Position numbers and translations under genes: made by a program. The notes beneath the pieces are model-generated. The model made no database searches. It was not told the origin of the DNA and saw only the letters and a program-made list of their open reading frames with translations. Shown here piece after piece: positions 4,776 through 59,822 of a DNA stretch of 64,000 nucleotides (position 1 is its first letter; each line of letters starts with the position of its first letter). Where the stretch lies: contig JADNRY010000034.1 of assembly GCA_015501585.1 (NCBI GenBank), forward strand, positions 1-64,000, read 5' to 3'. The DNA comes from Rhodocollybia butyracea (taxonomy: Eukaryota > Basidiomycota > Agaricomycetes > Agaricales > Omphalotaceae).

Positions 4776-6335
4776 AGTAACTACTGGGGGTATTTATATG
4801 TTGGACCTGCATTGGGTGCAAGTATAGAGTTTGCCGTGACCTCTCGTGAGACGGAAAGACCGCTAATGGCAATGTCTTCCCTTCTGTAAACTCTTTCATT
4901 ATGAAAGAAGACTTCCCGACTCGTTTAGACACCCCAGCAAAGTTCGCAGAAATGGTGAGCAACTCTCATCTCATACATTTACGCTCTTGTCGAGCATCTA
5001 CTCCCACATTTACACATTTACGCTCTTATTGAGCTACATTTACTTTCACATTTACCTCTTACACATTTACACATTTACGCTCTTATTGAGCTACATTTAC
5101 TTTCACATTTACCTCTTACACACTTACCCACACTTACACATCTACCCAGGTCGCTTGTGCCCCTCCAGGCACCCAAGGCCTCTCTCTCAATATTGAGAAG
5201 TTTCACCGAACAATTCCTGTACGCCCAGAACACAAGTTTGCTCTAGTCTTTGGTGACAACGGGGGTAACTTCTTTTTCGACCAGTGCATGTGTTTCGGCG
5301 CGGCTTCCGCTAGCAGCAACGCAGGGATGGTCAGTAACGCGGTCGTCGACATCTGGCGTGCTCGGAAAGTCAAACCAGTATCCAAATACGAGGATGACTA
5401 TAATATCTGGCGCATTCTCAATGCACTCGGCCTTTACGACTATGACAAAGCACTTGCTCTGCAACTCGTCGCGGACCTCAACATTCCTTGGCAACTTCTC
5501 AAATGCGATGAATTCTTCTCATCCATCGTGAAATTCCTCGGTTTTCTCTGGGACCTCGAAAAGAAGAGGGTCAGCCTCCAAGAGCTCAAACGCCTGAAAT
5601 ATCTTGCTCGAATCCGTCAATTCATTGCAGATTTCACAGGCAACTGAGCCCCGCTTGAACGTATACAGTCGGTGCACGGTACTCTATGCCATGTTGCCTT
5701 CATCTATCCAGAAGGACGTTCTCACCTCCCAGCTCTATCTAACTTCATGGCCTCCTTTAATGGCTCATTTGAAGAACACCGAGGCCGGTTTCCAACAACC
5801 AAAAGTTTTCGATGAGCTTCGTTGGTGGCTCACAACCCTCGAAGACCCATTTCACTATCGTGAACTCCGACCCAAAGGCCCTCTTCAGGACCTAGGTATC
5901 TACGTTGATGCTTCCACAAGCTGGGGCATTGGCATTATCTACCGCCGCCAGTGGATGGCTTTTCGCCTCCGCGCTGGCTGGAAGATTCCAGGTAGAGATA
6001 TTTGCTGGCTCGAGACTGTTGCAGTCGAGCTGCTCACCTATCTCCTCGAATCTGAAGGCTTTCATGACGCCTACATTCTCTTCCGCTCAGACAACCAAGG
6101 AACTATTGGAGCAGTCGACAAAGGCCGCAGCCCAAATTTCTGGATCAACTCTTCGGTCCGCCGCACTTTCGGGGTCCTAGGACCGCTCTTCATCCTTCCC
6201 AAAATGGAATATATCGAATCCAAACACAACCTGGCCGACCCAATCTCGCGTGGAGAACTCGGGTCCCCAGAGTTGAAGCTTACACTTACCTTTACGCTCC
6301 CCGACGAGCTCAATGACATTATTTCCTATGTTTGA
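4776..6335 (+). pseudogene. Reverse transcriptase-RNase H of the first YR retroelement
   Basis: RT fragments begin near 4805 (KYRVCRDLS, then SVNSFI and DFPTRLDTPAKFAEM), are interrupted by a putative intron at 4955-5149, and resume at 5150 with FALVFGDNGGNFFFDQCMCFG and the following RT thumb-like region. RNase H follows, with YVDASTSWGIG near 5900, the catalytic-type acidic stretch RSDNQGTIGAVD near 6090, and HNLADPISRG near 6230. Defects: TGA codons near 4850 and at 5645-5647 in the RT frame, and an extra T in the run near 5809 that shifts the frame. The open frame ends at 6335. A possible splice from a weak GT near 6330 to the AG at 6386 would lead into a linker exon (6387-6502), and GT 6503-AG 6551 into the recombinase. 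Non-functional as read. Confidence 0.8.
4955..5149 (+). other. Putative spliceosomal intron inside the RT, with internal tandem repeat
   Basis: The donor GTGAGC follows the codons for AKFAEM and the acceptor TACCCAG precedes codons for VACAPPGTQG; removing it keeps the RT frame. The intron contains two copies of a unit of about 55 bp (ACATTTACGCTCTTATTGAG and so on) and is rich in ACATTTAC/CTTACA. It is unusually long compared with the 45-70 bp introns of the host-type genes in this window. Confidence 0.7.
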
Positions 6336-6551
6336 GTAAATCTACTCCCACATTTACCTTACGCATTTACTCATTTCCCTTTACAGTTTTTGGAATAACT
6401 TTGCGCAAGCAAGTGCTTACGCGAACAGCGGTGTTCCATGCCCGCCGCCTGTTCAAAGTCCCGCTCCTTTACCCAACACTTACCGCCCTTCCTTTACAAT
6501 GGGTCAGACTATCCCACTTACTTACCCCTTACTTTTACTGACATGACATAG

Positions 6552-7969
6552 CTTTCGGAACTAGTAACCCACGCACACAAACAACACAGCTTGTTTCTTC
6601 AGCCATTCCTCGGTACAACTCCTCTGTGATGGCACCCAACCCATTACCGCTGGCACCAAACAAATTTAAGGTCATCCCTTTTCTGAGACCAACATTCGCC
6701 ACACAACCAACCTTATCCACTACTCCTAACCACCTCCCTTTCCTTCTCGCTACTAGACGAGTGAAGAAAGGTAATGAAATTGCACCAAGTTTCTACCGAC
6801 CCAGAGTCCGAGCTGTGGATCGCATGCACGCCTGGACCACACCATACTCACAGGAGAAACGCCTCACAGACTCAAATCCTTATCCCAAAGAAGTCTATGA
6901 AGCAGCTGAGCTCATCTGGAGCAAAGGCCTTGTTGACGTTACAAAATCCAACTACGGTGCCGGAGTATTGCGCTTCAACCAATACTGCGACAAGAGAAGG
7001 ATACCCGAAAGGCTTCGTATGCCCGTCGGTGACGTTCTTCTCTCAGGCTTTATAGGAGAACATGCTGGGAAGGTATCCGGCGACACTATCAAAGCATGGC
7101 TCTCCGGCATCCGCATGTGGCATATCTTACATGGTGCCCCGTGGTGCTGCAACGACTCTCCCAGAGTCACCTTAGCCAGAAGAGCAGCCAAAGTTGAAGG
7201 CTCAAGCAAACGCCGCCCTCAACGTGCTCCTATTACCATCGAGCACATGCAGAAATTACATGACTCCCTCGACTTCTCCATTCCTTTCCACTGTGCCATA
7301 TGGGCCCTCGCTCTTATCGCCTTTTGGGGTTGCCGAAGACTTGGAGAGCTCACCGTACCTTCAGCCGCAAAATTCAACCCAAAGTTCCATGCTATTAGAG
7401 GAACCATTATCAACCTCCTTTGCTCTCCATTCCGAAGAGGGAATTTTCACATACCCTGGACGAAGACTACAAAAGAGGTTGGTGCCGATGTCTCCTTTAC
7501 AGGGCGGGATGACGATCTATGCCCCTTCGACGCCATCATTCTCCACCAGAAATGCAACACCCAAGTCCCGGACAGCTTTTCCTTGTTTGCTTTCATGGAT
7601 GATAAAGGTGTTCCGCAACATATGGTAAAGAAGGTCTTCTTAAAGTTTGTCTTGGATATCTGGTCACGATTTGACTTAAAAGATATCCTTGGACACAGCT
7701 TCCGCATCGGCGGCGCTGTAGAACTCCTACTCATGGGTGTCCCTCCTCATATTGTTGCACAAACCGGCGGTTGGACCTCTTTAGCCTTCCTCCTCTACTG
7801 GCGCCGCATTGTCGATCTACTTCCCGCACACATTCATAAAGCCTACTCAGATAAACAATGGTCGAGCGCGCGCTCGGCCATGGACTCTTACCGTAAAACG
7901 AATAACATTACAACTTCTCAAATTGACGCTTGTGTAGCTGGTACTAATTTTCTTGCCAATGACCTTTAG
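6552..7969 (+). CDS. Tyrosine recombinase of the first YR retroelement
   Basis: Integrase of the phage-lambda/Cre fold that joins a circular DNA copy to the target instead of a DDE integrase. The coding start is inferred from the AG acceptor at 6550-6551; an internal ATG lies at 6629. An N-terminal SAM-like core-binding region runs from about 6900 to 7190. The catalytic domain shows the first Arg in GCRRLGEL (near 7330), the HxxR box in GHSFRIGG (near 7690), a Trp in GGWTS replacing the second His, and the candidate nucleophile Tyr in LLYWRR (near 7797). The stop codon is TAG at 7967. The frame is open with all expected catalytic positions, so this is the best-preserved gene of the element. 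Confidence 0.85.
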
Positions 7970-45361: not shown

Positions 45362-46504
45362 TACGATTGAGATCTGAGACGGTGGAAGCTGGTATCAGCT
45401 GGGTCGAGGAGTCGAGGACTGCGCTGAGGCTTGAGGACTGTTATAACTCGAGTACATATAAGAAGGAAGGAATCTGTAGACTGTCAGTCAGGGTCCTAAT
45501 AATCCAGCTGTCAAACAAGAAAAGATCAAGATTCAAAATCCCATCTTGATGCCGGAAGCTTGGAGAAAAACACGCATGAACATAACTTATTCGCATTCAG
45601 TGTGGAATCCCGGAGGTTTGAAGCTTGAGCGCTTGTCTTTTCAGATTCTAAGCTCTCAAATATTCACTTCAGATGCGCCCCAGCCCAGCGTACATACAGC
45701 AACTGTAACTGTGGGAACTGTAACATCAAGCGCATCAAGCTACATATCAAGTAGTCCCCGATATCACTGATACACTTACCCTATGTATCCAGTGGGAGGA
45801 GAAAAGTTGCGTCGCTGTGTAGTTTCTAGTGACCACCCCCACCTCCCTCTAACAGCACTTGTTACAGATTCACATTTTTGAATTGAAGTCTACTAGTCCT
45901 CAAGCATGTTTAGTTATATCACTGCGCAAAATATGTTACTTTTAAGAAATGTACTACCGGTAATTTGTGTCGGTGAAGTTAGCAGCCCATGTGCTGGGAT
46001 TTCATCTCTGTTGATATCGCAATGAAACCAATCTCAGAAATACGTCCCCACTTATCACCCCCCTCTCTTGATCAATAAAAAACACTGCTGATTTGACATC
46101 GGTTCCAATCATTGCACGACTGAACTCCTGGGATTCTCACTATTCAAACGATTGGCCACTTCAACGTGTCCCCCCAGCGCGTTGTTCACGTTTTCACCGA
46201 TTGTCACGCCGTTGCCGTGGCTTCGCTTGTTGCTGTAGGTGCGATAGTACCGCCTAATAATTGGGACCGCGCATGTAATAAATTTCTTCCGTGTTTTCAT
46301 CAGTGCAGCCCATCTTGCAGAAGCTGGAAATAATCGTTGTATTCTAGGCGGTCTCACACTTTCGCGGCCAATTTCGACCAAATTTTACTACTGCCTCATT
46401 GCTGACTCGTTTGTTTCGCTATCAAAATCATCATTCATTACTTTAATTTCCTTCAAGCTTCTAGCTTCAGAATTCAAAATTAGACAGATCTCACATGACT
46501 GCGA
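45362..46504. other. Intergenic region between the membrane protein gene and the KDZ element
   Basis: Contains the presumed promoter of the membrane protein gene. No gene recognised; a 90-codon frame (46109-46381, minus) has no family signature. Confidence 0.4.
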
Positions 46505-46512
46505 CGGACTTG
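46505..46512. repeat. Left 8-bp target-site duplication of the 13-kb KDZ element
   Basis: CGGACTTG, found again at 59662-59669 directly outside the right end. Confidence 0.9.
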
Positions 46513-46700
46513 CACCTCATATGCCCGGTAAACCTATATAATAGTCATTGACATGGGGGGGGGGGGGGGGTGATGGGGTAGGTAGTTGTAATGGAGATCC
46601 GCTATCGTATGGTAGCGGTATAAAAGCGCAATATCTCGTTTGAACTTTGATGTGAGATATCTTTCGGGTAGGGTTTCCGATAGGCCCGGTACCGCCCCAC
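46513..46700 (+). repeat. Left terminal inverted repeat of the KDZ element
   Basis: Matches the reverse complement of 59486-59661. It contains a run of about 17 G near 46555 where the right copy has about 9, and a TATAAAAG box at 46619 reading inward. Confidence 0.85.
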
Positions 46701-46827
46701 GCCTAGGATCTCTCGGGTACCGGTACTGCCAATTACATCACTATGGGCGCCCTCCCCGCCCCCGGTCACTGTTATTCTGTATATAGATGGTAATTTATTG
46801 TCTATGGTATACAAAAGGTAAGGTTAT

Positions 46828-49800
46828 CTAATCCCCACATACCCGCAGCACAGTAACTAGCTCCACAAGTTCTTCTTCTTCTTCGTCAGGGTCTTCCTCT
46901 GCTGGCGGGGCGTCTTTGTTGTTGTCGTGATTGTTGGGGCTTGAGGGTGGGGTTTCGGTGGCCATCATACCCTGGATTTTCGAGTAGAGCGCGCCGCGAC
47001 CTGGTGTCAGGGACCCCGTGAAGCCATCCATCCTTGCCAACTTGTTCAGCCTTAGGATGTGCATATCCTTGCACCGCCCTCGTTCCCAGCCGTACTTCTG
47101 AATCTGTACAGCAAGCAGAGGGTCCATTTTCCTTACCTCTTCAGTTCAGTCACCCACATATTTGGTCTTATTAGTCTACACTTTTGTTACATTGACCTTA
47201 CTAAAAAGACTCAAAAACCTAGGCAAAACCCGGGCAGCTAGGTCATGACCTAGGTCAGGTTGGTCTTTTCCTGGGGTTGATAGGTCATGGCCTGGGGTGA
47301 GATAGGATATGGCCTAGGTGGGGCAGGGCATGGTCTAGGTGAGGGAGGGCATGGTCTAGGTGAGGGAGGGTATGGTCTGGGAGGAGGAGGGTATGGTTTA
47401 GGAGGGGGAGATATAGTCTAAGAGGTGTAGGGTGAGAGTGGAGGATGGTGAGATAGAGAATATAAACAAGAATGAAATATCATAGAATAATGACTTGAAA
47501 TTTTTAGAAACATATTGGGATTTTTTACATATCTGTAGATTATGACAAGATTAAGCTAAGTCACAGTGCCCTGTTCTGGGTGGTCAGGGAAGCATGGGAC
47601 TTACCTGACCTAGCTGATTTAGGTCATGACCTACTTTTTTAGGTCATGACCTACCTAACCTAGGTCATGACCTACCTGACCTAGGTCATGACCTGGGTGA
47701 ACTAGGTCATGACCTACCTAGCCTAGGTCATTTTAAATTGGCCTGGGTCATGACCTAGGCTAGGCAGGTCATGACCTAGTTCACCCAGGTCATGACCTAG
47801 GCCAGACCTAGGTTAGGTAGGTCATGACCTAGGGTAGGTAGGTCATGACCTAGGCTAGGTAGGTCATGACCTAGGCTAGGTAGGTCATGACCTAGTTCAC
47901 CCAGGTCATGACCTAGGCTAGGTAGGTCATGACCTAGGTCAGGTAGGTCATGACCTAGGTCAGGTAGGTCATGACCTAAATCAGCTAGGTCAGGTAAGTC
48001 CCATGCTTCCCTGACCACCCAGAACAGGGCACTGTGACTTAGCTTAATCTTGTCATAATCTACAGATATGTAAAAAATCCCAATATGTTTCTAAAAATTT
48101 CAAGTCATTATTCTATGATATTTCATTCTTGTTTATATTCTCTATCTCACCATCCTCCACTCTCACCCTACACCTCTTAGACTATATCTCCCCCTCCTAA
48201 GCCATACCCTCCTCCTCCTAGACCATACCCTCCCTCACCTAGACCATGCCCTGCCCCACCTAGGCCATATCCTATCTCACCCCAGGCCATGACCTACCAA
48301 TCCCAGGAAAAGACCAACCTGACCTAGGTCATGACCAATTTTTTAGGTCATGACCTAATTCCCAGGTCATGACCTAGCTGCCCGGGTTTTGCCTAGGTTT
48401 TTGGGTCTTTTTAGTAAGGTCAATGTAACAAAAGTGTAGACTAATAAGACCAAATATGTGGTTGCCTGAAGTGACCTCTTCAGCCTTGAGAGAGACATAC
48501 GCCGATTCCTCATGCATGTAAGTCACCAGTGAGCGGATTTCCTTGTTTAGACGCGTTATTTCTACCTCGGAGCCTACAAGCTTGTGGTACTGGTTAAGGG
48601 CTAGACAACCAGCTGGCTGGGCCCAGGGCTCACTGCAAATGTCGCGTCGAGCATCACGGAGAAGCTCAAAGTCAGAAAGGAAGGTGTAGTCAAGGACTTC
48701 CTCCCAGGTTAGCTGGGGACAGCCAAGCTCAGACGCAGCATCGTTATAGGAAGCGACGGCAGTACAGATGGCTTGGGATCGGGTCTTGAGGGCCTGAGCA
48801 ATGTGCTTTCGAAGTTTGTATCCTGCAAACAACGAAACAATCAGTTTGAATACTTGGAGCGATTAGCATGTAATGCATACCGGTACGAGACATATTGAGC
48901 TTGGTGAGTTCAAATAGCCAGGCTATGATGAGGCCCTCAAGTTTATCCAGCGCCCTCTGGAATTTTGCCGTGCTAACCAACTGTTTCGTTCGCTCCCACT
49001 CTGCTGAACCAGGGATCCACCGCGTTTTGATACCCAGTTGCATCTCCAGTACATGTACTTCTTTCTTGAGGTTGTCATGGTTTTTGATAGCATGTCGTCT
49101 TTGTGTTTCGAGACGGCGGGCTTGATCAGCGTTGGTAAATGCCTGTGAGATGTTGTCGGGGGTGTACTGGATCCATTCACGCGTCGCATTGGATAGCTTT
49201 AATCTAGTTGGATGGGTTAGTATCAAACACACAAGGTTTCTAACTGGGCACGTACTCTGAGTCATCCAGTTTCACCAGCTTCTTGAAATACTCCATCTGA
49301 AGGGTTTCCTCCAGCGGCTCCTTCTTAAGGCTGCTAAGATAGGCTTGTTCATCTGCGAGCCATTGGCGGAAGGTGTCGGTGGAAGGGATGCCCATGTCGT
49401 TCATTGTCTTCGCAAGTGCGTGTCGGGTCTGCTGGATCTCAAGTGCTTGCTTGTAGTTGTCGACGAGGAACTTGCTGAGTCGACTATACACTTCAAAGTT
49501 GTCATGGTGGTAACAATATCTTGCGATAGCTTGTCGCCGGTGGAAGACACTCATGTGTCGGGTGCTTGATGCCAACTCATTTGATTCAGAAAAGCACGGT
49601 TCACACTGCTCCAGGTGCTCTATCCCAATATCTGGCTTATATGTGGCAAGGTGACAGAGTTGGCATAGCCGCCCATGGGCATGGCCGTGGAACGCCCCGA
49701 CAAGTGAGGTGAACCCCAGTTCCTTTGCCTTTTCACCTAAAGGGCTGCGGGAAACGGTCGTGCCAAAGCCGCACCCAACGTCATAGCCCATAGCAATGTC

Positions 49801-51318
49801 TTTACCAATGACCTCTAGAAGCCGGTCAAGGACAGGGAGGGGATATTTAGACCTGGGGATGGAAACATTAGTGTTGTAGATGCAACTTTGAGCAGCGAGC
49901 ATGTACAATTCACCACTCCTCACCATATTGGCAATGAGGAGAACAAAGCTATGGCAACAGAGAGCCAGGAATACACCGGTCTCCTCATACACACCCCACA
50001 TCTTCGCAGTTACCTCCTTGCTTAAGTTCTTCCATTGCTCTTCACACGTATTTTCTTCACCATCTACTGCGACCTGGTCTCCAAACGCCGCCTTAATGGA
50101 TTCCTTTGACCAAGCATCTACTTCCTCGCGAGTAAGGTAGTAGTCCCCTCCCGCTACTCTTGTATCCTCAAACTCCTTTGACTTCTCTGGCGCCGGAACG
50201 TCGCCGCCATCTACGTTCTCCGTAGATTTGTTCCTTACCAGTCGCTTCAACGAATTGTTGCCGTCCCAAGTTCCTAGCATCTGGTAGTGCATAGATGGCT
50301 CTCCCTCTACATGGTACAGGCAGCAGGGGCAAGCGTTGGCCAAGCGCCAATTTGGGGAGTCATGGCCGAGGGCAGCCTGGACGCGGCCATGGATTCGAGA
50401 GAGCACATCGAGGTAGAGATCAAAGGCAATGGAGAATTGAACTTGTAGATAGGGCTTGAAAGGAACCCCTTGTATATCGCAAAGCGACTTAACAAAGGCT
50501 TTTATGGAAAGTCGAGGGCACCGGAGCAATTGTACATGATACACCTCAAGTGTTCGTGCTGTAACACCAATGGAGAGCAAGGAAAGGTGCCGTTTCTAAC
50601 GAGGCTACACGACCAGTAAGTGTCCCGTTCAACAGATTGAATTAACGAGTAATAAGAGCCTAAGGACTGATTAATGGAAAACCATAGATTGAGATAAGAC
50701 TGCTTACGAAAAACATCTACTACAATGACAGTCTGAGAGTTAATCTTGCCGTCCAACTCTGCTGGATTTCCCCCGCCTACACCTTCCTGTCCAAGCGCTG
50801 TGTACCACTCCGTATACGCGTCTGCCATCCCCTCTAGTTGCGTAGCAAAACGCTGGTTTCGCGGCTCAGTTCTATCGCGATGAGTCCGATATTCCTTGTA
50901 TTTCCTATGACAAGTCAATTGAGTAAGATCTAGTACCAAGGGTAGAAAACAACGCGCACCGCTTTCCCATATCTGTCTTGTAAAAGTTTCCAGCAATATC
51001 CTGCCAATCACCTGCGCTGCTGTCATCTATTGAAGCTGCCCCTTCAAGAACTTCTGTCATCTTGTGAGCGTCGTCTTCGTCAAACCCGCCAAGTTCATTG
51101 CCCTGCCATGCGTGAATTTCCTCCCAGAATTCCTCGTTGGGCCGTAGCGGTCCTACACGCGCCGCTTCCTGCACTTTGAGCTTGGTGATTTGGGTTTGGC
51201 TGGCTGTCTTAACTCCTTTGTTCTTCAGAAATTCAAGAATAGTGGAGCTTCCACTGGTGTAGTTCTGGCGGCGATGAGAGTTGGTCCTACTCGTGCCTTT
51301 GAGCTTTGAAGAGGTCAT
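46828..51318 (-). pseudogene. KDZ-family transposase (CxC1 type) of the 13-kb element
   Basis: Transposase expected to cut and join the element ends. ATG at 51318 (MTSSKLKGTSR). Exon 2 starts at 50904 and includes the first catalytic Asp in VIVVDVF, ending near 50708. The next exon carries DGNNSLKRL and the CPCCLYHVEG cluster, then the second Asp in MGYDVGCGFG (near 49780) and, after GAFHGHAHGRLCQLCH, the Glu region LEQCEPCFSESN (near 49610). A helical tail (TKLNMSRT, then GYKLRKHIAQALKTRSQ, ELLRDARRDI) leads to a last piece ending KLARMDGFTGSLTPGRG and an acidic tail (stop at 46828). Defects: a one-base loss near 50571 and a 1.3-kb fold-back insertion (47154-48461) between the last two coding pieces. 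Catalytic residues are intact. Confidence 0.88.
47154..48461. mobile_element. Fold-back element FB-2 with palindrome array, inserted in the KDZ gene
   Basis: A 1.3-kb near-perfect hairpin. Ends are CCACATATTTGGTC and its inverse; arms of over 500 bp pair (for example GTGCCCTGTTCTGGGTGGTC at 47567 and its inverse near 48025). The centre (about 47590-47990) and parts of the arms are an array in which the palindrome GGTCATGACC recurs about 15 to 20 times at 20-22 bp spacing, separated by TAGGCTAGG-like linkers. The 73-codon frame at 47797-48018 is a by-product of this array. No clear target duplication was found. Confidence 0.88.
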
Positions 51319-51621
51319 TGAGTTAAGTAAACGCTGACTCAATGAAGCGCCCAAAATCGAACATGTGACCCTGCATGCTTTGACTTAAGCTTTCACGGTC
51401 ACTTATGTTTACCACCACCAGCTTCTCATTTTCTTTCTGATTGGATAAAGTAAGTCCTTTTTGATTTCTCGACTCTCTGTGGTGCCTAAGATGTGCATGC
51501 CCTGTCACGTTCACCCCTGGATGCGGGAGGGCAGCGCGCTGAGCGGTGCTTGCACTTGCAAGGGGAACGGTTGCTGTTATAATAAAGTCGCTGACGTTTC
51601 CTGCTTCTTTAGTCTACTACA
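51319..51621. promoter_or_regulatory. Divergent promoter region between KDZ transposase and TET/JBP gene
   Basis: 303 bp separate the two start codons, which point away from each other, so both promoters must lie here. No strong TATA box; several CTTTGACT/AAGTCA-like motifs. Co-expression of transposase and dioxygenase would be the simple consequence. Confidence 0.55.
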
Positions 51622-52449
51622 ATGTCTACAACCTTTTCTCAAAAGGTATGTCTTGCGATGAACCTTGTACCAGAGCTAATTTCACTTTAGACGCGTTCCG
51701 GTTGCTCTTTTTTAGAAATTCTTTCTGAAGGTAACCCAAGCAATCTTGCTGTTCTCCAACTCGACATTGCGGTCGACATAGAGGACCTAGTGCGCAACGC
51801 AGTTGAAGCTGCCGACTCTGGAGAACTTGAAGAACTCCAGGTTTTTGCAACAACGGCACCCTCCTCCCCGCCAACTGCACTTCCTTCTGCGCCACCCAAT
51901 CTACTTAAACGTGCACGAACCCCCGAAGCGGAGGACAAACTCACCGAGCTCCCCTCCAAACGCACCTGTCAAACCAGCAGCAACAAAACCCCTAAAGCCC
52001 AGTCCTCCAATAACAGACGTCGCAATAAACGCCACGCCAAAAAGCGAGAAACACAAGGCCATCCACAAGGTGCTGGTAGAGCGTTTGAAAAGTACGTCCT
52101 TACCAGCAGTCCCATCGAAACGGGCTTTCAGGGCGAGGGGCTTCCAATTGCAGCGGGGGGCTGGGTTGCCACCAACGCCACCTATCACGGCGCAAAGGTG
52201 AAGCGAACTCTAGAGGACATGAAGGCAATGGGGTTCACCCATATCCCATGGAAGGGAAATGTTATGGCTCGATCAATAGTCTCGTCCAAACCTTCACAGT
52301 ACGTAACTCAGCAGTAAAAATGATAAGAGAAATTAATGAGATTATAGAGCAAGCCTTTCCGTTCGTTGAAACCGCTAGGCAAAAAATATATACTCAAACA
52401 ACTAGACTCAAGTAAAGTTAGTAACTAGTTTGTAATACAAAACTCACAG

Positions 52450-52860
52450 AAGTTATTATTTGGAGATAGCTCGACAAATAATAATATGATTACCCTCGGA
52501 GATAGCTCAACAAGCAGTAATATGAATCAGAACTAGTACTCGGAGATGGCTCAACAAGCAGTAGTGAGTGTGGTGTCTAGTACTCGGAGATAGCTCAACA
52601 AGTAATAGTGAGTGTGGTGTCTAGTACTCGGAGATAGCTCAACAAGTAATAGTGAGTGTGATGTCTAATACTTGGAGATAGCTCAACAAGTAATAGGAAG
52701 TTGCAACTCGGAGATAGCTCAACAAGTGGCAATTAAAGAAGTATTCACTAGGAGATAGCTCAACAGGTGAATGTTAGTGGATACAACTTGGAGTTAGCTC
52801 AACAAGATGTATAAATGTGTATTGTAGCTTGGAGATAGCTCAACAAGATACAATGAGTTG
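52450..52860 (+). repeat. Array of ten hairpins with constant apex and variable stems
   Basis: GGAGATAGCTCAAC (or a one-base variant) occurs ten times, starting at 52462, 52498, 52542, 52586, 52630, 52674, 52710, 52751, 52790 and 52831. Flanks differ from unit to unit but are self-complementary within most units: TTATTATTT/AAATAATAA, ATTCACT/AGGTGAAT, ATACAACTT/AAGATGTAT, ATTGTAGCTT/AAGATACAAT. Units 4 to 6 share nearly the same stem (CTAGTACT/AGTAATAG). The pairing in units with different sequence points to selection for, or a mechanism that makes, hairpins. Confidence 0.8.
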
Positions 52861-52984
52861 GTCTGGTGATTCACACAAGTGATAACAGCAAACAAGTGGG
52901 GGTTTGGATTTAAGAAAAATAATACGTCTACTGTACATTGGTAAATCTAGCCTCCTTATATACTGTCAAGTATGTATTATTTAG

Positions 52985-53151
52985 GAAATGCTGCGGAATG
53001 ATATCATAACTGTGGAGCTGGAATGATGTCATAACTGCGGAGCACTGGAATGATGTCATAACTGCGGAGCAGTAAGATGACATCATGACTGTGGAGCAGT
53101 AAAATGATGTCAGAACTGCGGAGCAGTAGAATGATGTCATGCAGTGACTGG
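52985..53151 (+). repeat. Second hairpin array, ACTGCGGAGCAGT units
   Basis: Five units of about 28 bp alternating ACTG(C/T)GGAGCAGT (stem ACTG/CAGT, apex CGGAG) with the partly palindromic ATGATGTCAT. The GGAG apex is shared with the array at 52450-52860. Confidence 0.75.
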
Positions 53152-54309
53152 TGTTCAATTATTCTAGTGAAACCGAAGTTGATTAACAGTATGTTCACGT
53201 GTGCAGCATTATGCCAAATAATGTAGAGAAAATGAGTAATGAATGTAAAATGTATATGATAAGTAGAAATCTTAATGATAGTAGTAGTAGTTGGTTAATA
53301 ATAATAGAAAAAGATATGTATATGCTTATAGTTTGGGTATGGGTCATAACAGGAAAGTGAGTGCTTTGGATTCCTCTGCATAGCCCCGCTCCCAATTTGA
53401 AGGACCCAGGGTTCCCGTATGCGCAGTTGATCAGCAAGATCGAGTCATGTTTGTCGCAGTGGGCCGACCTGACGACCCCTTGTATGTTGCAGACACCGAA
53501 CGCATGGCGGAGCTTATGATGGAGATGGGCACAAAGACCGACTGAGACAAGGAGGAGAAGCAGCACAGCCGTGGTCACTTTGCTTCCGCTAACTACAGCT
53601 GGTCTTATGGCAAAGGCCAGCCCAAACCCAAGCGCCTTGGAGGTGAAAGGCAAGAGATGATGAGAGAGTTTGTCAACAAATTGTGTACTCAACGCATGGC
53701 TGCCTTTCAAAGCGGTGAGTTCTCCACAGCGTAGTTACCTCGACATCCATTTAACGCATCCATAGCATCCTTTGCCCTATGGTTTCCGAAGAGTTATGCT
53801 GAATTTTGTAAAAGAAACTCCCAGCTCAAGGAGAAGGAGCCAACCTTTGACGGCAACATCAAAGGCAGCATCTATTCCTGCTGTACCGCCAACTGCACTA
53901 ACACTTGGACCTACATCCATCGCAATGGAAGGAACGCTGCTAGAGCCTGCTGTGCCATCAACGCTGGTGGACCGTTTGACCCGAAAAAGGGAGGACAGCT
54001 TATTATTTGGGATCTGAAACTTGTTATTGACTTTCCTGCCGGCTCAACAATCCTTCTTCCCTCAGCACTTTTCCGACACTCCAACATACCGACTCAACCA
54101 GGTGACAAGCGCGTTTCATTCACTCAGTACACTGCAGGCGGAATTCACCGATGGCTTGAGTACAGCCTGGAGGTAGGATGGAGGAGGAGTTTGCTATGCA
54201 AGACCCTGAAGGCTTTGAGCGGATGATGAAAGAAAGGCCAGAGCGTTGGCATAAGGCCCTACAGATGTTTAGTACCTTTGAAGAACTTAAATCTGGTGTC
54301 GTTGAATAA

Positions 54310-55327
54310 TTAGGTAGCAAAATATACGATACAAGTATTTCAACGAAAACCCCGATTCATACCTGAGTGGATTTTGAAATTATTGTCAACTCAACAAAAG
54401 TTGACTTTCTGCAAGTGGCACCCAGCAGTAAGTTCTGGAAAGTTCTGAAACTGTTCACGTCTGGATGAACACTCAATAGCATTGGAGTACTTAAATCATT
54501 CCCAGACCAAAGCAAAATGGTTCTTAGAGATATGTACGAGCAAAGTACATGAAGCAAGATCCTAACCGTACTTCCGTCCTACCAATTTTTCGACACTATA
54601 CCAACTCAAAAATTTTACCCTATGGGAACTAAAATTAAAATTGTACAACTATACTGGTAGAACATACTACCGTTAACGAATCTTCTCCAAGTTCAATTTT
54701 CATTTGACTAGAACGCAAGCAAGATTGAAAAATCGAAACTTGTACTGTCCAATCCCAAAGTATCTTACCTCGGATGGGCCTTAATTTTTTTCTCCGCTGT
54801 AAGTTAGACTATACAATCAATCTTGGCTACCAAGAACCTCTTACTTACAGGATCGTGGCTCATTAAATTTTGTGGAAAGAATTCTCACTTTTCACTATTT
54901 TTCCAAGTGAAACATCGCCATTTTGCATGGAAAAAAATCTCCGAAAATGATAAACTATCCCTTGGAGTCAACGCTACGGATTAATACCCAACAGAAAGTA
55001 GAATTCATGCAGAAAGAGTGCGCATTTTGAACGTGTGCCTGGGCGCCTAATACTCAAAAAAGGAAAAAGACATGACGATCACTTGTAATTTTTTGCTTCT
55101 GCCCAGTTCACCTTTGCGCACAGACTTTAAGAAAATAGATATTTAACATAAATTGAAGAAATTTGCGACATAACACTATATAAACATGTACAAAATAATG
55201 CATTACGGGATAAGATTTGGGCTGGGTGTCTCCATGATGCGAGAGGGGTGAGTGTTGGCCTTGTCATTCCAGTCCTCTTCAGCATTGGCCTCGGTGTTCC
55301 AGCCCTTCAAAGTCCCTCCACCCCATT
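54310..55327. other. Gene-free stretch inside the KDZ element
   Basis: AT-rich sequence between the convergent 3' ends of the dioxygenase gene and the minus-strand gene ending at 55328. No coding signature; should contain both terminators. Confidence 0.5.
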
Positions 55328-56521
55328 CTAAACTGACTTTGACTGCTTCGTGTCTGTGGGCTTATCAGCGCCAGCACTGAGTTGAACATTAAATTAGAAC
55401 TTACACTGAATCATATACAGCAGGCCTCAAGCCCTCAGTGACACTCCAATAAGGGCGGCCAGCACCGTTTCGAATCACATTAATAATGCCAGAGTCACGC
55501 GCAGCTTGCCATGCCTCTCGAGCCTTCTCCAAGCTGTAAAATCCCTTAAATACTAGCGTTGGATCAACCTAAACCATCTGTTTGACAGTCAACCTTTGTG
55601 TTTGTTAGAATTTCAAACGAGTGAAGACAAAGATATGAGACGTACCAGTTGGCATAAAAATGTGGTGTTTTTCCTGAATACACCACATACGCACTGAACT
55701 TTCCCTGTCGACCTGGTGTAGTGGGGGCAGCAGCAGCTGGAGATACAGGATAGATAGCTGGAGCAGCGGATCCCTGTCCACCTGCCACAGTACGAGAAGA
55801 GCCATGGCGAACAGGCGTTTGTGGGGGAGTAGCGATGGTGGAATACCTGGGAGGGGTAGCGATGGGTTGTGGGATAGAAATGGATTGGAGGAAGTGCTGT
55901 GGGTCCCGTAGAATACCGGGGTTGTGTTCGTTCTGCGTCATGTATAATCAGCGGCTTTCTCAACTGTATACAAGAAACACATACTGTTGCATATCCAGGT
56001 GTTTAACTAGCATTTCAAGAAGTTAGAAATGGGGTTATAGATTTAGGGTACTAGGTCATTCATACTTGATAACTCTTCCATCTTTGCAACGAGATTCTCT
56101 GTGAACCACAACTGAGCTGTTGAATCTGAAAGAATATGCTGTGACTCACCCTCTTCCGTATCACTGCCTCTATTAATCTCTCCTTCATCTTCCTCGCCGC
56201 TTGAGATCCATATGATGGAATTTGAGCCCTTACTAGCCTTGGCCTTTCCGTGTGGAGGATTGCCGTCTTGACGAGGGTAAATAGATAGGTAGAAAAATTA
56301 TGGGAAAAATTGATAGCATACTGTTCAAAGCCTTGACAATCTCGAGATTGCAGAGTCTTCGACCTACAACATGAGTGCTAAAGCATGATTCCACTTTATA
56401 ATTTCAGACATTAACTCACCCTCAGGTGTGCCTTTCAAAGGACTAATGTTTGTCTGTGTTCCTAGACAACAGTGTCAAGAAGCTACAAGAAATATATCAA
56501 GCGTCAAAACTTACCAGTCAT
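55328..56521 (-). CDS. Small protein with SUMO-interaction-like motif and RNase H1-N-like domain
   Basis: Multi-exon gene on the minus strand. ATG at 56521; exons 56521-56515, 56461-56420, 56363-56332, 56266-56066, 55932-~55643, about 55573-55394 and a last short exon ending at the TAG 55328-55330. Residues about 35-50 read SNSIIWISSGEEDEGE, a hydrophobic core followed by acids as in SUMO-interaction motifs. A Pro/Ala/Thr linker follows. The C-terminal part AYVVYSGKTPHFYANW and VFKGFYSLEKAREAWQAA resembles the N-terminal (viroplasmin-like) hybrid-binding domain of RNase H1, usually written VYxGxxPGIYxxW...FKGFxxxxEAxxA. No RNase H catalytic domain follows. The junction after ANW closes only with a weak GTCTCA donor. 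Role unknown; possibly nucleic-acid binding in service of the element. Confidence 0.65.
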
Positions 56522-57062
56522 TTCAAACTTGAGAGAAATGTGATAAGAGATTCAACTGAAGGGAAGATGATAGAGGGAGGGAACAAAGAATGTTGAATGA
56601 AAATCAATTTACTTATCAGTGCCAAGAAACAGTAGCTCGGGCCGCTCAGAAATCACGCAGCAATCACGTAGCAATCACTTCTTAACAACTCCTCCATCAA
56701 CGTGCAGTTTGATCCAGAATAGATATGAGCTGCTAAAGCTCTGTACTCTTACATTACCTGGGTAGCATTTGGACCAATGGACACCCTCTTCCATTTCTCA
56801 AAGACTCTCTTCAAATTTTCTTTCTTGCCTCTGCTGCTCATCTGTGTCATCTGTGTACACAATCTCTGCGACAATCGGACGCGACAGTCGGAATCAAATT
56901 CCTGGTGAACGCGAAACGCGAAACGCATGACCATCTGGAGGACGTGTTTAGTGTTTCGAGTTTTGTTTATTTGAAAAAGCTTGAAAAAGCTCGGTTCAAC
57001 CCTGAAGTTGGTAGGAACGCACCCTCTGAGCTCTCATCTTCGCACAAAACTTTCTCTTCAAA
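56522..57062. promoter_or_regulatory. Second divergent promoter region of the KDZ element
   Basis: 541 bp between two divergent start codons (56521 minus, 57063 plus). A 61-codon minus-strand frame here (56749-56934) has no recognisable signature and is not called. CTTGAAAAAGCTTGAAAAAGC-type short repeats occur at 56970. Confidence 0.45.
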
Positions 57063-58856
57063 ATGAACAACCAAAGCTTTTCACCCAGCGGTCTCAACGT
57101 CTCCCTTGGTCAAGGCCTCGAACCAGTTCCAGGCGAATTTGACTTCGACTTGAGTACTGACTTCAACATCGATCTCAGTGACCCCATGGTCGCTAACGCA
57201 TTCGAGTTTATGGACAATCCTTCTAAATATGGACTCAAAACTGGTAATTATACATGCTATTTTATTTTCTCAGTAATTGAATATCCGAATTTGTTGCAGA
57301 TGCTTCAAACAAATCTGCAGCACCTGCAGCACCTTTCCTGCCCCATGACTCGGGTTTGCCTGGCTCCAGCAACATTCCTGACCCTAGCTCCCCTCCCATC
57401 TCCAGCACTAAAGTCGGCAAGCAGGATGGCCATTCAGATGAAGGTTCGAGTGGGGCTACCGCTGGCGGGGCTTCTTATTGTCCTCTTTTCAACCCGCTTC
57501 CCATGCAGAATGAAACCCCCTCCTTCCCATGCAGACGGTTTGTGCATGTCCTCTGAAGCGCCACCTTGACCCGGTCCAGGCTCGTACCATGAATGAAGCC
57601 AAGGCAGCAAAACAGGCACTGGCTCTGCTGGTAAAGCAAGATGTTATCAGGCTCCTTGAAGACCACAAGGAGAGGGTAGCTAGTCTTGCCAACAAGCATT
57701 CCGTTACCCTCGACTACATCAAGCATCTCATTACAACGACATCGGGATTGAAGCATAAAAGGGCACCGGGCCAAATGCAAGCTCTTGTACATATTAAAGC
57801 ACAGGAGGTGAACGCCTGTGAGCCATTCCCTCTACTTCCCAACGGGATACTGTCTCACTTCAAAACAGCTCTTCCGGTTGGCAGCAAGCTGAAGGCTCCC
57901 GCTCTTCACAAGCTCGTCAATCTTGATGACGAACTACTGGAAATCTCTGATGAGAAACTGGAGCAAGCAAAACGAGAAGTTGATGAGAAGAGGCTGCTCT
58001 CCGCTTGTGGTGCTCGGCCCAACGTTGTATCAGCTGGAAAGGACTACTCATCTATGTCGCAGCTAATTCAAAAAGAGGTACGTCTCTACCACTGTAGCTC
58101 CAAGGTAAACTAACCTCATGATCTATAGTTCGACAGTCTCCATCTTCGGACAGGTGCAGTAGGCTTTGGCTTCCTTGCTCCAGCATCTAGCAATGACCGA
58201 GGACGCCCGATCTGGTTTGTTGCTGGAACAACAGCGTTGATTTTGTATGGAGGCAACTGAATACAACGATGTGGATCTTCTTGGGCAACTGGCGCTATGG
58301 GCAAGCACAAAAAACTCATGTACGTCTAGCGTTACAATTTCCGTTTGGGCAATCTCTCATTATTTATCTAGAGAAACCCTCTACAATACCCAATCTACAG
58401 TCTCAATGCTCATCCATCATTGCTTCAGGCCTGCGTAAGTCTATGTATTCACGTCCGTTGCCTGTTCTAATGCAATACTTAGGTTATACTCTCAACAACA
58501 AAACGGTAAAGATGAACTACAGCAATTACCATCAGGCAATCGTTGAGAAGTTCCATGTCCGCCTCATTGGCCTTCCCAACTTGGCGACCTTCAAGGATGT
58601 CAATGGGCCCATCAAACCTTTTGACATCAAGGACCTCCCGACGCTTGAAGCACTACACGCTGTGCTTGAGTCTGGCACCTGCCTCTGGGCTCGAATGTCG
58701 CAGGATGACATCACCGAGCACAGCGAATGGATGAAGACGCAGGTGATAGAGGAACGGTCAGTCCGCAGCAACAAAGGCCGGAAGCGTGGTCCTCGACCAC
58801 AAGCAGTGGAGAACAGTGATGGTGAAAACAAGGACCGCTCTCAAGACTTATCTTGA
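57063..58856 (+). pseudogene. Large conserved basidiomycete protein of unknown function, frameshifted
   Basis: Exon 1 57063-~57242 (acidic, Asp/Phe-rich N-terminus), intron to the AG near 57300, then a long exon. From 57585 it shows a helical region (EAKAAKQALALLVKQDVI, SVTLDYIKHLITTTSG), the motif NALVHxKAKEVN as MQALVHIKAQEVNACE, and a domain FDSLHLRTGAVGFGFLA ... DLLGQLALWASTKNS after a GTACGT-AG intron near 58078-58129. A last exon from about 58487 carries YHQAIVEKFHVRLIGLPN and LEALHAVLESGTCLWARMS. I recognise this layout from many agaricomycete predicted proteins, with no assigned function. Frame breaks fit a lost G near 58230 and a lost A in the A-run near 58310, plus one unresolved shift near 57520. 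Its presence inside the element suggests it is transposon cargo. Confidence 0.6.
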
Positions 58857-59485
58857 AAGCGTCGGCACACCAACGACACAAGCTCATCACGCAAACATCA
58901 GCATAACGAAGCTAATGGCACCAGAGCATTGGTCACAAAAAAGTCGGTTTCGAAGCGGCTTCCTCCTCAGCCCCGTAGCCGTGAGTTTATTGAGGACAGC
59001 GATGAAGAGCTTGACAAGGACGAGTAATGGCAGTGAGGAAACAGTATTAGTGATGGACACTGCGAGTTTCATATGCTACTTAAGTTGATTCAAGTCTAGA
59101 TATGGTACTAGTATGTAATACAGACTATATACTGCGTATACTATGTTTTCTGAATGCACAAGCATGAGAGAACAAGCAATAGTCATAAGACTAACACATA
59201 AGTACAAAGTTAGTAACAAACTGAAAGGGTAGAAAGGAGGGAAGTGACTGGGAGAGCATAAATAGACAGCAAGCAGGGGCAGGGGAGTGCCATGACCAGC
59301 GCTACCGGGTCTACCAAATACCAGAAAAATTTAGGTGGGCGGGGCGGGTATAGGGTCTATTATCTGAACGATTGCAGGCGGGAAGGGCGCGTATATGGCG
59401 GTATGGCGGTACCGGGTCTATCCGACTCTACCGGGAAGCTTACCCGAAAGATTACAGGCGGGAAGCGTGCGTATAGGGCGCTATG

Positions 59486-59661
59486 GCAGTACCGGGTCTA
59501 CCGGAAAACGTATCCGAAAGATATCTCACATCAAAGTTCATATGAGATATTGTGCTTTTATACCGCTACCGTACAATAGCGGATCTCCATTACAACTACC
59601 TACCCCATCACCCCCCCCCATGTCAATGACTATTATATAGGTTTACCGGGCATATGAGGTG
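59486..59661 (-). repeat. Right terminal inverted repeat of the KDZ element
   Basis: Reverse complement of 46513-46700. Inward of it (59285-59485) lie additional diverged copies of a GCGGGAAG/ACCGGGTCTA unit that the left end has only in part. Confidence 0.85.
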
Positions 59662-59669
59662 CGGACTTG
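59662..59669. repeat. Right 8-bp target-site duplication
   Basis: CGGACTTG, identical to 46505-46512. Confidence 0.9.
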
Positions 59670-59822
59670 CGACTGGTCTGACATCAATATCTCAATGCCG
59701 ATCTTCCCTCAATGGGTTTATGTACATGGTCACAATTATAAGAAACCTGCTATCGATGAGGATGGTTCAAGCTCGATTCCTCTGGCTATTTCATCCATAC
59801 TTCACAGTCTAATACTTTGACC

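Follow-up and report, generated by a model that had tools for sequence, protein, structure and literature searches.

The window studied here, bases 1-64,000 of contig C650 in the Rhodocollybia butyracea genome (95.6 Mb in 1,381 contigs), harbors a KDZ transposon with genes for a transposase, a TET-like dioxygenase, a protein with an RNase-H1-N domain and a conserved protein of unknown function (gene 4). The element is very probably a decayed copy of a mobile unit of about 10.7 kb. Inverted repeats of about 180 bp enclose its constant set of four genes; it generates 8-bp target-site duplications and would behave along the lines of the mechanism outlined below. Since one genome offers seven copies with defined limits, assignable to three subfamilies, together with empty sites and per-gene measures of selection, the question of which genes are cargo becomes answerable, and the evidence points to all four.

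Boundaries and size of the mobile unit

An earlier note, drawn from the letters of the window, had described inverted ends of about 180 bp and a perfect 8-bp duplication around them, and both hold (Table 1). Both element termini read inward as CACCTCATATGCCCGG, and the 14-base terminus CACCTCATATGCCC occurs exactly 63 times in the genome versus twice for its reversed control. By hand count, 40 of these occurrences form 20 inward-facing pairs, six with a spacing of 10.7-13.1 kb and 14 with one of about 2.1-2.4 kb. For the remaining 23 the list contains no exact partner, although some pair with a sequence carrying one mismatch. End sequences that could be paired belong to full-length or short fold-back elements, and to this extent the counterevidence named in the note, end copies standing alone, was not seen. 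The left flank has three matches in the genome, namely the window itself and relatives on contigs C1194 and C1227. These relatives align to the joined flanks at 75-76% identity over 480-483 columns and are unoccupied, with a single CGGACTTG at the insertion point. They are paralogous repeats of the same genome rather than alleles from another strain, and their read-through of a single CGGACTTG shows precise insertion with an 8-bp duplication at the window locus.

The unit that moves is smaller than the 13.1 kb first assigned to it, which includes two later insertions. The first, a fold-back whose sequence and reverse complement agree at 86%, is flanked by a duplication of 7-10 bp depending on the assignment of CAG, and is dispersed in the genome (best 40 of 348 candidates scored). 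The second, probably a solo long terminal repeat, is likewise dispersed (40 scored out of 383 candidates); some of its copies form same-strand pairs spaced 5.5 and 6.2 kb. Compared with five other aligned copies, both blocks are found only in the window copy; the C716 copy was aligned after both had been removed, and at 10,545 bp it is too short to contain either. Together these unrelated repeats, younger than the element, make up 2,436 of its 13,149 bp. What moves is thus a unit of about 10.7 kb; there is no evidence that 13.1 kb ever transposed.

Table 1. Positions of the element and its parts in the window, and of related copies elsewhere in the genome (contig:positions)
Feature	Position	Strand	Remarks
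KDZ transposon, decayed copy	46513..59661		13,149 bp; 10,713 bp minus two nested insertions; supported by ends, duplication, empty sites and six further full-length copies
Left target-site duplication CGGACTTG	46505..46512	+	perfect, 8 bp
Right target-site duplication CGGACTTG	59662..59669	+	perfect, 8 bp
Left terminal inverted repeat	46513..46696	+	184 bp; 90% identical to right end (184 columns)
Right terminal inverted repeat	59485..59661	-	177 bp
KDZ transposase gene	46821..51318	-	seven exons mapped from C676; split by nested insertion 1; broken
Nested insertion 1, fold-back repeat in last transposase exon	47135..48473		1,339 bp; flanked by ACCTCTTCAG
Interval between divergent transposase and TET-like start codons	51319..51621		303 bp by exon maps; possible shared promoter
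TET/JBP-fold dioxygenase gene	51622..54309	+	four exons mapped from C676; split by nested insertion 2; broken; HxD aspartate replaced
Nested insertion 2, end of TET-like exon 2	52255..53351		1,097 bp; TG...CA ends; 5-bp duplication GGAAA
RNase-H1-N (Cauli_VI) protein gene (gene 3)	55203..55863	-	three exons; stop and lost start codon
Interval between the starts of genes 3 and 4 (divergent)	55864..57062		1.2 kb by exon maps; possible shared promoter
Gene 4, conserved, unknown function	57063..59024	+	seven exons; database protein P0063 placed exactly on C676, then mapped; broken
Full-length copy	C1090:7545-18500		subfamily A
Full-length copy	C676:25038-35789		subfamily A
Full-length copy	C905:9025-19808		subfamily B
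Full-length copy	C837:16461-27224		subfamily B
Full-length copy	C74:4695-15474		subfamily B
Full-length copy	C716:579015-589559		subfamily C; own related ends; perfect duplication ACCATTAA
Distant KDZ family copy	C620:867-10597		97.5% identical to C650b
Distant KDZ family copy (C650b)	C650:325065-334904		on the window's own contig; 97.5% identical to C620 copy

Full-length copies and selection on the four genes

Exon maps were built by comparing C676 with C905 for three genes and by placing P0063 on C676 for gene 4, and were then transferred to the window. The transposase domain PF18758 is recognized in the window frame (E 1.3e-63) and at positions 1-217 of the C676 transposase model (E 9.3e-71; 238.4 bits versus a cut-off of 26.6), a match by which the element is assigned to the KDZ superfamily. 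The C676 gene 3 protein matches PF01693 (E 3e-10; 40.6 bits versus a cut-off of 21), bearing out the RNase H1-N part of its original label, SIM/RNase H1-N-like. The description of the element as complete is apt for its ends but not for its genes, all four of which are broken in the window copy, with stops or frame-breaking length changes in the transposase, the TET-like gene and gene 4.

Six full-length copies of 10,545-10,956 bp exist besides that of the window, and inverted repeats measure 157-184 bp across the set. Subfamily A comprises C650 (the window), C1090 and C676, subfamily B C905, C837 and C74, and subfamily C C716; A and B have diverged to 52-84% identity in 400-column blocks (C650 versus C905). 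Full-length inverted end pairs across the genome enclose the same four genes: transposase (-), TET-like (+), RNase-H1-N (-) and gene 4 (+) keep one order and orientation in 7/7 copies. Perfect 8-bp duplications flank five of the seven, with sequences that differ between copies. The four genes together without such ends were not found among copies whose ends were read. C837 and C74 have a common right flank (99.6% identity over 226 bp) and different left flanks, and C837 looks mosaic, being 95.7-97.9% identical to C905 across gene 4 and at least 99% in most other blocks, a pattern that fits recombination or misassembly between near-identical copies.

Protein-level constraint extends to every gene of the set. 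Across five pairs drawn between subfamilies (A-B, A-C and B-C), the nonsynonymous-to-synonymous ratio omega was 0.12-0.16 for the transposase, 0.08-0.10 for the TET-like gene and 0.14-0.24 for gene 4, and 0.09-0.14 for RNase-H1-N in four pairs, the fifth being saturated. Control ratios of nonsynonymous to synonymous differences (pN/pS) in shifted frames were 0.90-2.42 for the between-subfamily pairs, and the bootstrap upper limit of pN/pS was no higher than 0.48 in 8/8 tests (C676-C905 and C905-C716). Within subfamily A, C676 and C1090 gave an omega of 0.14-0.19. Judged by these ratios, all four genes are under purifying selection between subfamilies (omega 0.08-0.24) and therefore look like cargo, in agreement with the original proposal that they move as one unit.

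Several observations weigh against this reading. Judged from the exon maps, every copy has at least one of the four genes damaged; the window TET-like copy lacks the HxD aspartate, and Tet_JBP falls below cut-off in four of five scanned homologues (best 26.6 bits versus 34.9). C837 and C74 are without matching duplications. The pair C650-C1090, both decayed, has an omega of 0.41-0.80, indicating weak or no constraint, and the recent pair C905-C837 yields 0.05, 0.48, 0.32 and 0.62 from few differences. For three genes the exon maps were optimized by a score favoring synonymous change in C676-C905, which lowers omega for that pair and affects other pairs less; the gene 4 map came from a database protein and so lies outside this fit. 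Finally, the evidence on cassette order comes from the R. butyracea genome alone.

Proposed mechanism and its alternatives

In the proposed mechanism, the KDZ transposase would bind the inverted repeats and cut and paste the element, and each divergent gene pair would be driven by a shared promoter. A plant-virus protein with an RNase-H1-N domain acts as a binder of RNA-DNA hybrids or of double-stranded RNA. The enzyme of TET/JBP fold would oxidize methylated bases on element DNA and so help it to resist silencing, in line with the escape from methylation silencing proposed for TET genes in transposons (Kojima 2025; PMC12730594, main text). The RNase-H1-N protein may serve the same task through affinity for RNA-DNA hybrids or double-stranded RNA. 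The gene 4 product, for which an HMG-box identity was considered, could be a nuclear DNA-binding accessory. Short fold-back elements with the same ends would borrow the transposase of the full-length element. The problem of silencing resistance in DNA transposons is thereby widened to two more proteins, one with an RNase-H1-N domain and one conserved but of unknown function, and why one element keeps a DNA-base dioxygenase plus an RNA-DNA-hybrid-binding domain becomes testable.

For gene 2, a model of the homologue P0001 (mean predicted local distance difference test, pLDDT, 81.1) matched chains of CcTet, NgTET1, TET2 and CMD1 above FTO and AlkB-type enzymes, and the iron-binding HxD/E...H residues are present in 40/41, 39/41 and 40/41 homologues. 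The C676 protein has no Pfam Tet_JBP match at the curated cut-off; PF12851 is listed in the precomputed annotation of P0010. By this model gene 2 encodes a TET/JBP-fold enzyme, but a divergent one, which amends the term DNA-base dioxygenase first given to it. Copies C676, C905, C837, C74 and C716 keep the motif, whereas C650 and C1090 have lost it. The C650 (window 53766-54309) and C1090 genes both lack the HxD aspartate; this loss, as the residue is kept in C676 and in subfamilies B and C, may predate the split between these two copies.

The main text of PMC12730594 describes two Agaricomycete types of TET gene, AG (close relatives of CcTet) and PE (HxE in place of HxD). The AG type was rejected for want of recognizable sequence similarity to CcTet, which was retrieved neither by a single TET-like protein (E up to 1) nor by a 41-sequence profile (E up to 10). 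The PE type was rejected as HxE is absent, the third position of HxD/E being D in 39/41 homologues, N in two and E in none. By sequence, the group fits neither type on the two marks tested.

Such divergence leaves room for a less likely but quite conceivable alternative, in which the TET-like protein has a different base or RNA as its substrate, or works for the host, and is not directed against silencing by cytosine methylation. Identity to CcTet of Coprinopsis cinerea (7vpn, 7w5p, 8jkk) is about 12-13% over the structural alignment, the failure of the 41-sequence profile to find CcTet points the same way, and FTO and AlkB-type enzymes are the next matches after the TET and CMD1 chains that head the list. 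Positions corresponding to CcTet Gly331 and Asp337 (5 and 11 after the first His, counted assuming no gap) are Asn and Cys in 41/41 homologues. CcTet also oxidizes 6mA, according to the main text of PMC12730594.

Genome searches bear on a second alternative, that the transposase, perhaps with the TET-like gene, alone serves the element and that RNase-H1-N and gene 4 are chance passengers. RNase-H1-N returned 27 matches (34/34 candidates scored) at 10 loci (C650, C676, C1090, C307, C74, C837, C905, C716, C1115 and C523), and 10/10 have a TET-like match no farther than about 1.1 kb away. Gene 4 returned 42 matches (43/43 candidates scored), and its loci with E < 1e-10 are in cassette order with RNase-H1-N in 8/8 cases, C523 having a fold-back in between. 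C1115 keeps the first three genes and only the beginning of gene 4; gene 4 and the transposase were not seen in the 10 kb read at C307, and the ends of the C1115, C523 and C307 loci were not found. On both C523 (80227-85196) and C307 (579-5013) a large fold-back adjoins the RNase-H1-N gene. KDZ and TET-like genes no more than 6 kb apart form at least 14 pairs by hand count, 14/14 divergent, a lower bound because the TET list is limited to the best 90 of 241 candidates. Numerous matches to TET-like or KDZ genes are not part of such pairs. At least 97 TET-like matches (best 90 of 241 candidates) and 144 KDZ matches versus 27 and 42 for the other two genes indicate that close relatives of these two are dispensable for other KDZ elements.

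The third gene of a distant family adds to this side. Five further weak gene 4 loci were found (C637, C520, C620, C650:325-335k and C902), and two of them, C620 and C650:325-335k (C650b), were analyzed. Over matched stretches they are 34-52% (transposase), 38-40% (TET-like) and 29-32% (gene 4) identical to the window family, with the same gene order and orientation; their ends were not found. At the RNase-H1-N position lies an opposite-strand frame of 22-25% identity (best E 7e-6 in C620 and 0.02 in C650b, 20 kb searched) that has no Pfam match; it may be a divergent RNase-H1-N homologue, though a doubtful one. Nonetheless, chance passengers are very improbable, for RNase-H1-N and gene 4 are present in 7/7 full-length copies and their omega of 0.09-0.24 between subfamilies, seen in frame only, is near that of the transposase. 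Practically no weight attaches to the remaining possibility, that a segment between inverted repeats was duplicated and never transposed as a unit. The common flank of C837 and C74 and their lack of matching duplications favor it, but perfect 8-bp duplications, each of another sequence, flank five of the seven copies, the two empty sites contradict it for the window copy, and the differences between C837 and C905 are concentrated in gene 4, as would fit recombination or misassembly.

Related elements and other features of the window

Fungal TET/JBP genes were until recently reported mainly as neighbors of KDZ transposases. Complete TET-bearing Kyakuja, Zisupton and other elements were delimited in December 2025 (PMC12730594, here and below from its main text), so a complete TET-bearing KDZ element is not new. 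TET+ Zisupton of Agaricomycetes likewise combine a KDZ transposase, an internal TET/JBP gene and 8-bp duplications, whereas their TET genes are of AG or PE type. The label of Zisupton-type initially given to the window element agrees with its duplication length, but Dileera, which also makes 8-bp duplications, fits equally, so that this length does not separate the two. Kyakuja was rejected: TET+ Kyakuja share the KDZ superfamily, CA...TG termini, a TET/JBP gene and an Agaricomycete host, but have 7-bp duplications and no inverted repeats, in contrast to the 8 bp and 157-184-bp repeats seen here. TET+ IS3EU elements of Pucciniales also pair a TET/JBP gene with a further conserved gene (an alpha-kinase) in kept order, but differ in transposase superfamily, duplication length (6 bp), extra gene and fungal class. 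The main text of the paper makes no mention of RNase H, Rhodocollybia or Lentinula. Apparently new here are the four-gene set with its constraint, the TET group outside AG and PE, and fold-back dependents with common ends.

These dependents were read as 20 short elements of 2,010-3,606 bp with similar ends, of which 16 have perfect 8-bp duplications (exceptions C243, C1216, C235 and C240). Their inner core is a fold-back of about 1.1 kb without a gene model, found at 40 or more loci (best 40 of 68 candidates scored), with ends checked in 20. Many of the remaining copies of the end sequence can be traced to these short elements, whose existence suggests that the ends work in trans. Hairpin arms are 74.9-97.6% identical within an element (19 short elements, including L019 on C447 and L025 on C547), and left arms of eight chosen elements are about 67-85% identical between elements, with one close pair at 96.6%. 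Arms match better within than between elements in most families; C301 is an exception (74.9% within, up to 84.5% between). C1216:14758-16868 and C15:2382-4508 have a common left flank GTTCCCCA, present on both sides only in C15.

With hairpin arms up to 97.6% matched within one element, a more elaborate and rather improbable scheme can be drawn, in which a two-layer anti-silencing module has accompanied the KDZ transposase since before the present families split. The non-AG/PE TET would remove or mask methylation, RNase-H1-N would bind RNA-DNA hybrids or double-stranded RNA in the manner of the plant-virus protein, gene 4 would be the DNA-binding partner guiding both to the element, and the fold-back hairpins would supply double-stranded RNA for the module to counter.

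Elsewhere in the window, no TET-like or gene 4 match was found outside 46500-59700 (E 1e-5). A second KDZ transposase piece lies at 1908-2734 on the + strand, and at 5598-7969 open reading frames read by eye resemble an RNase H domain and a tyrosine recombinase, in a DIRS-like arrangement.
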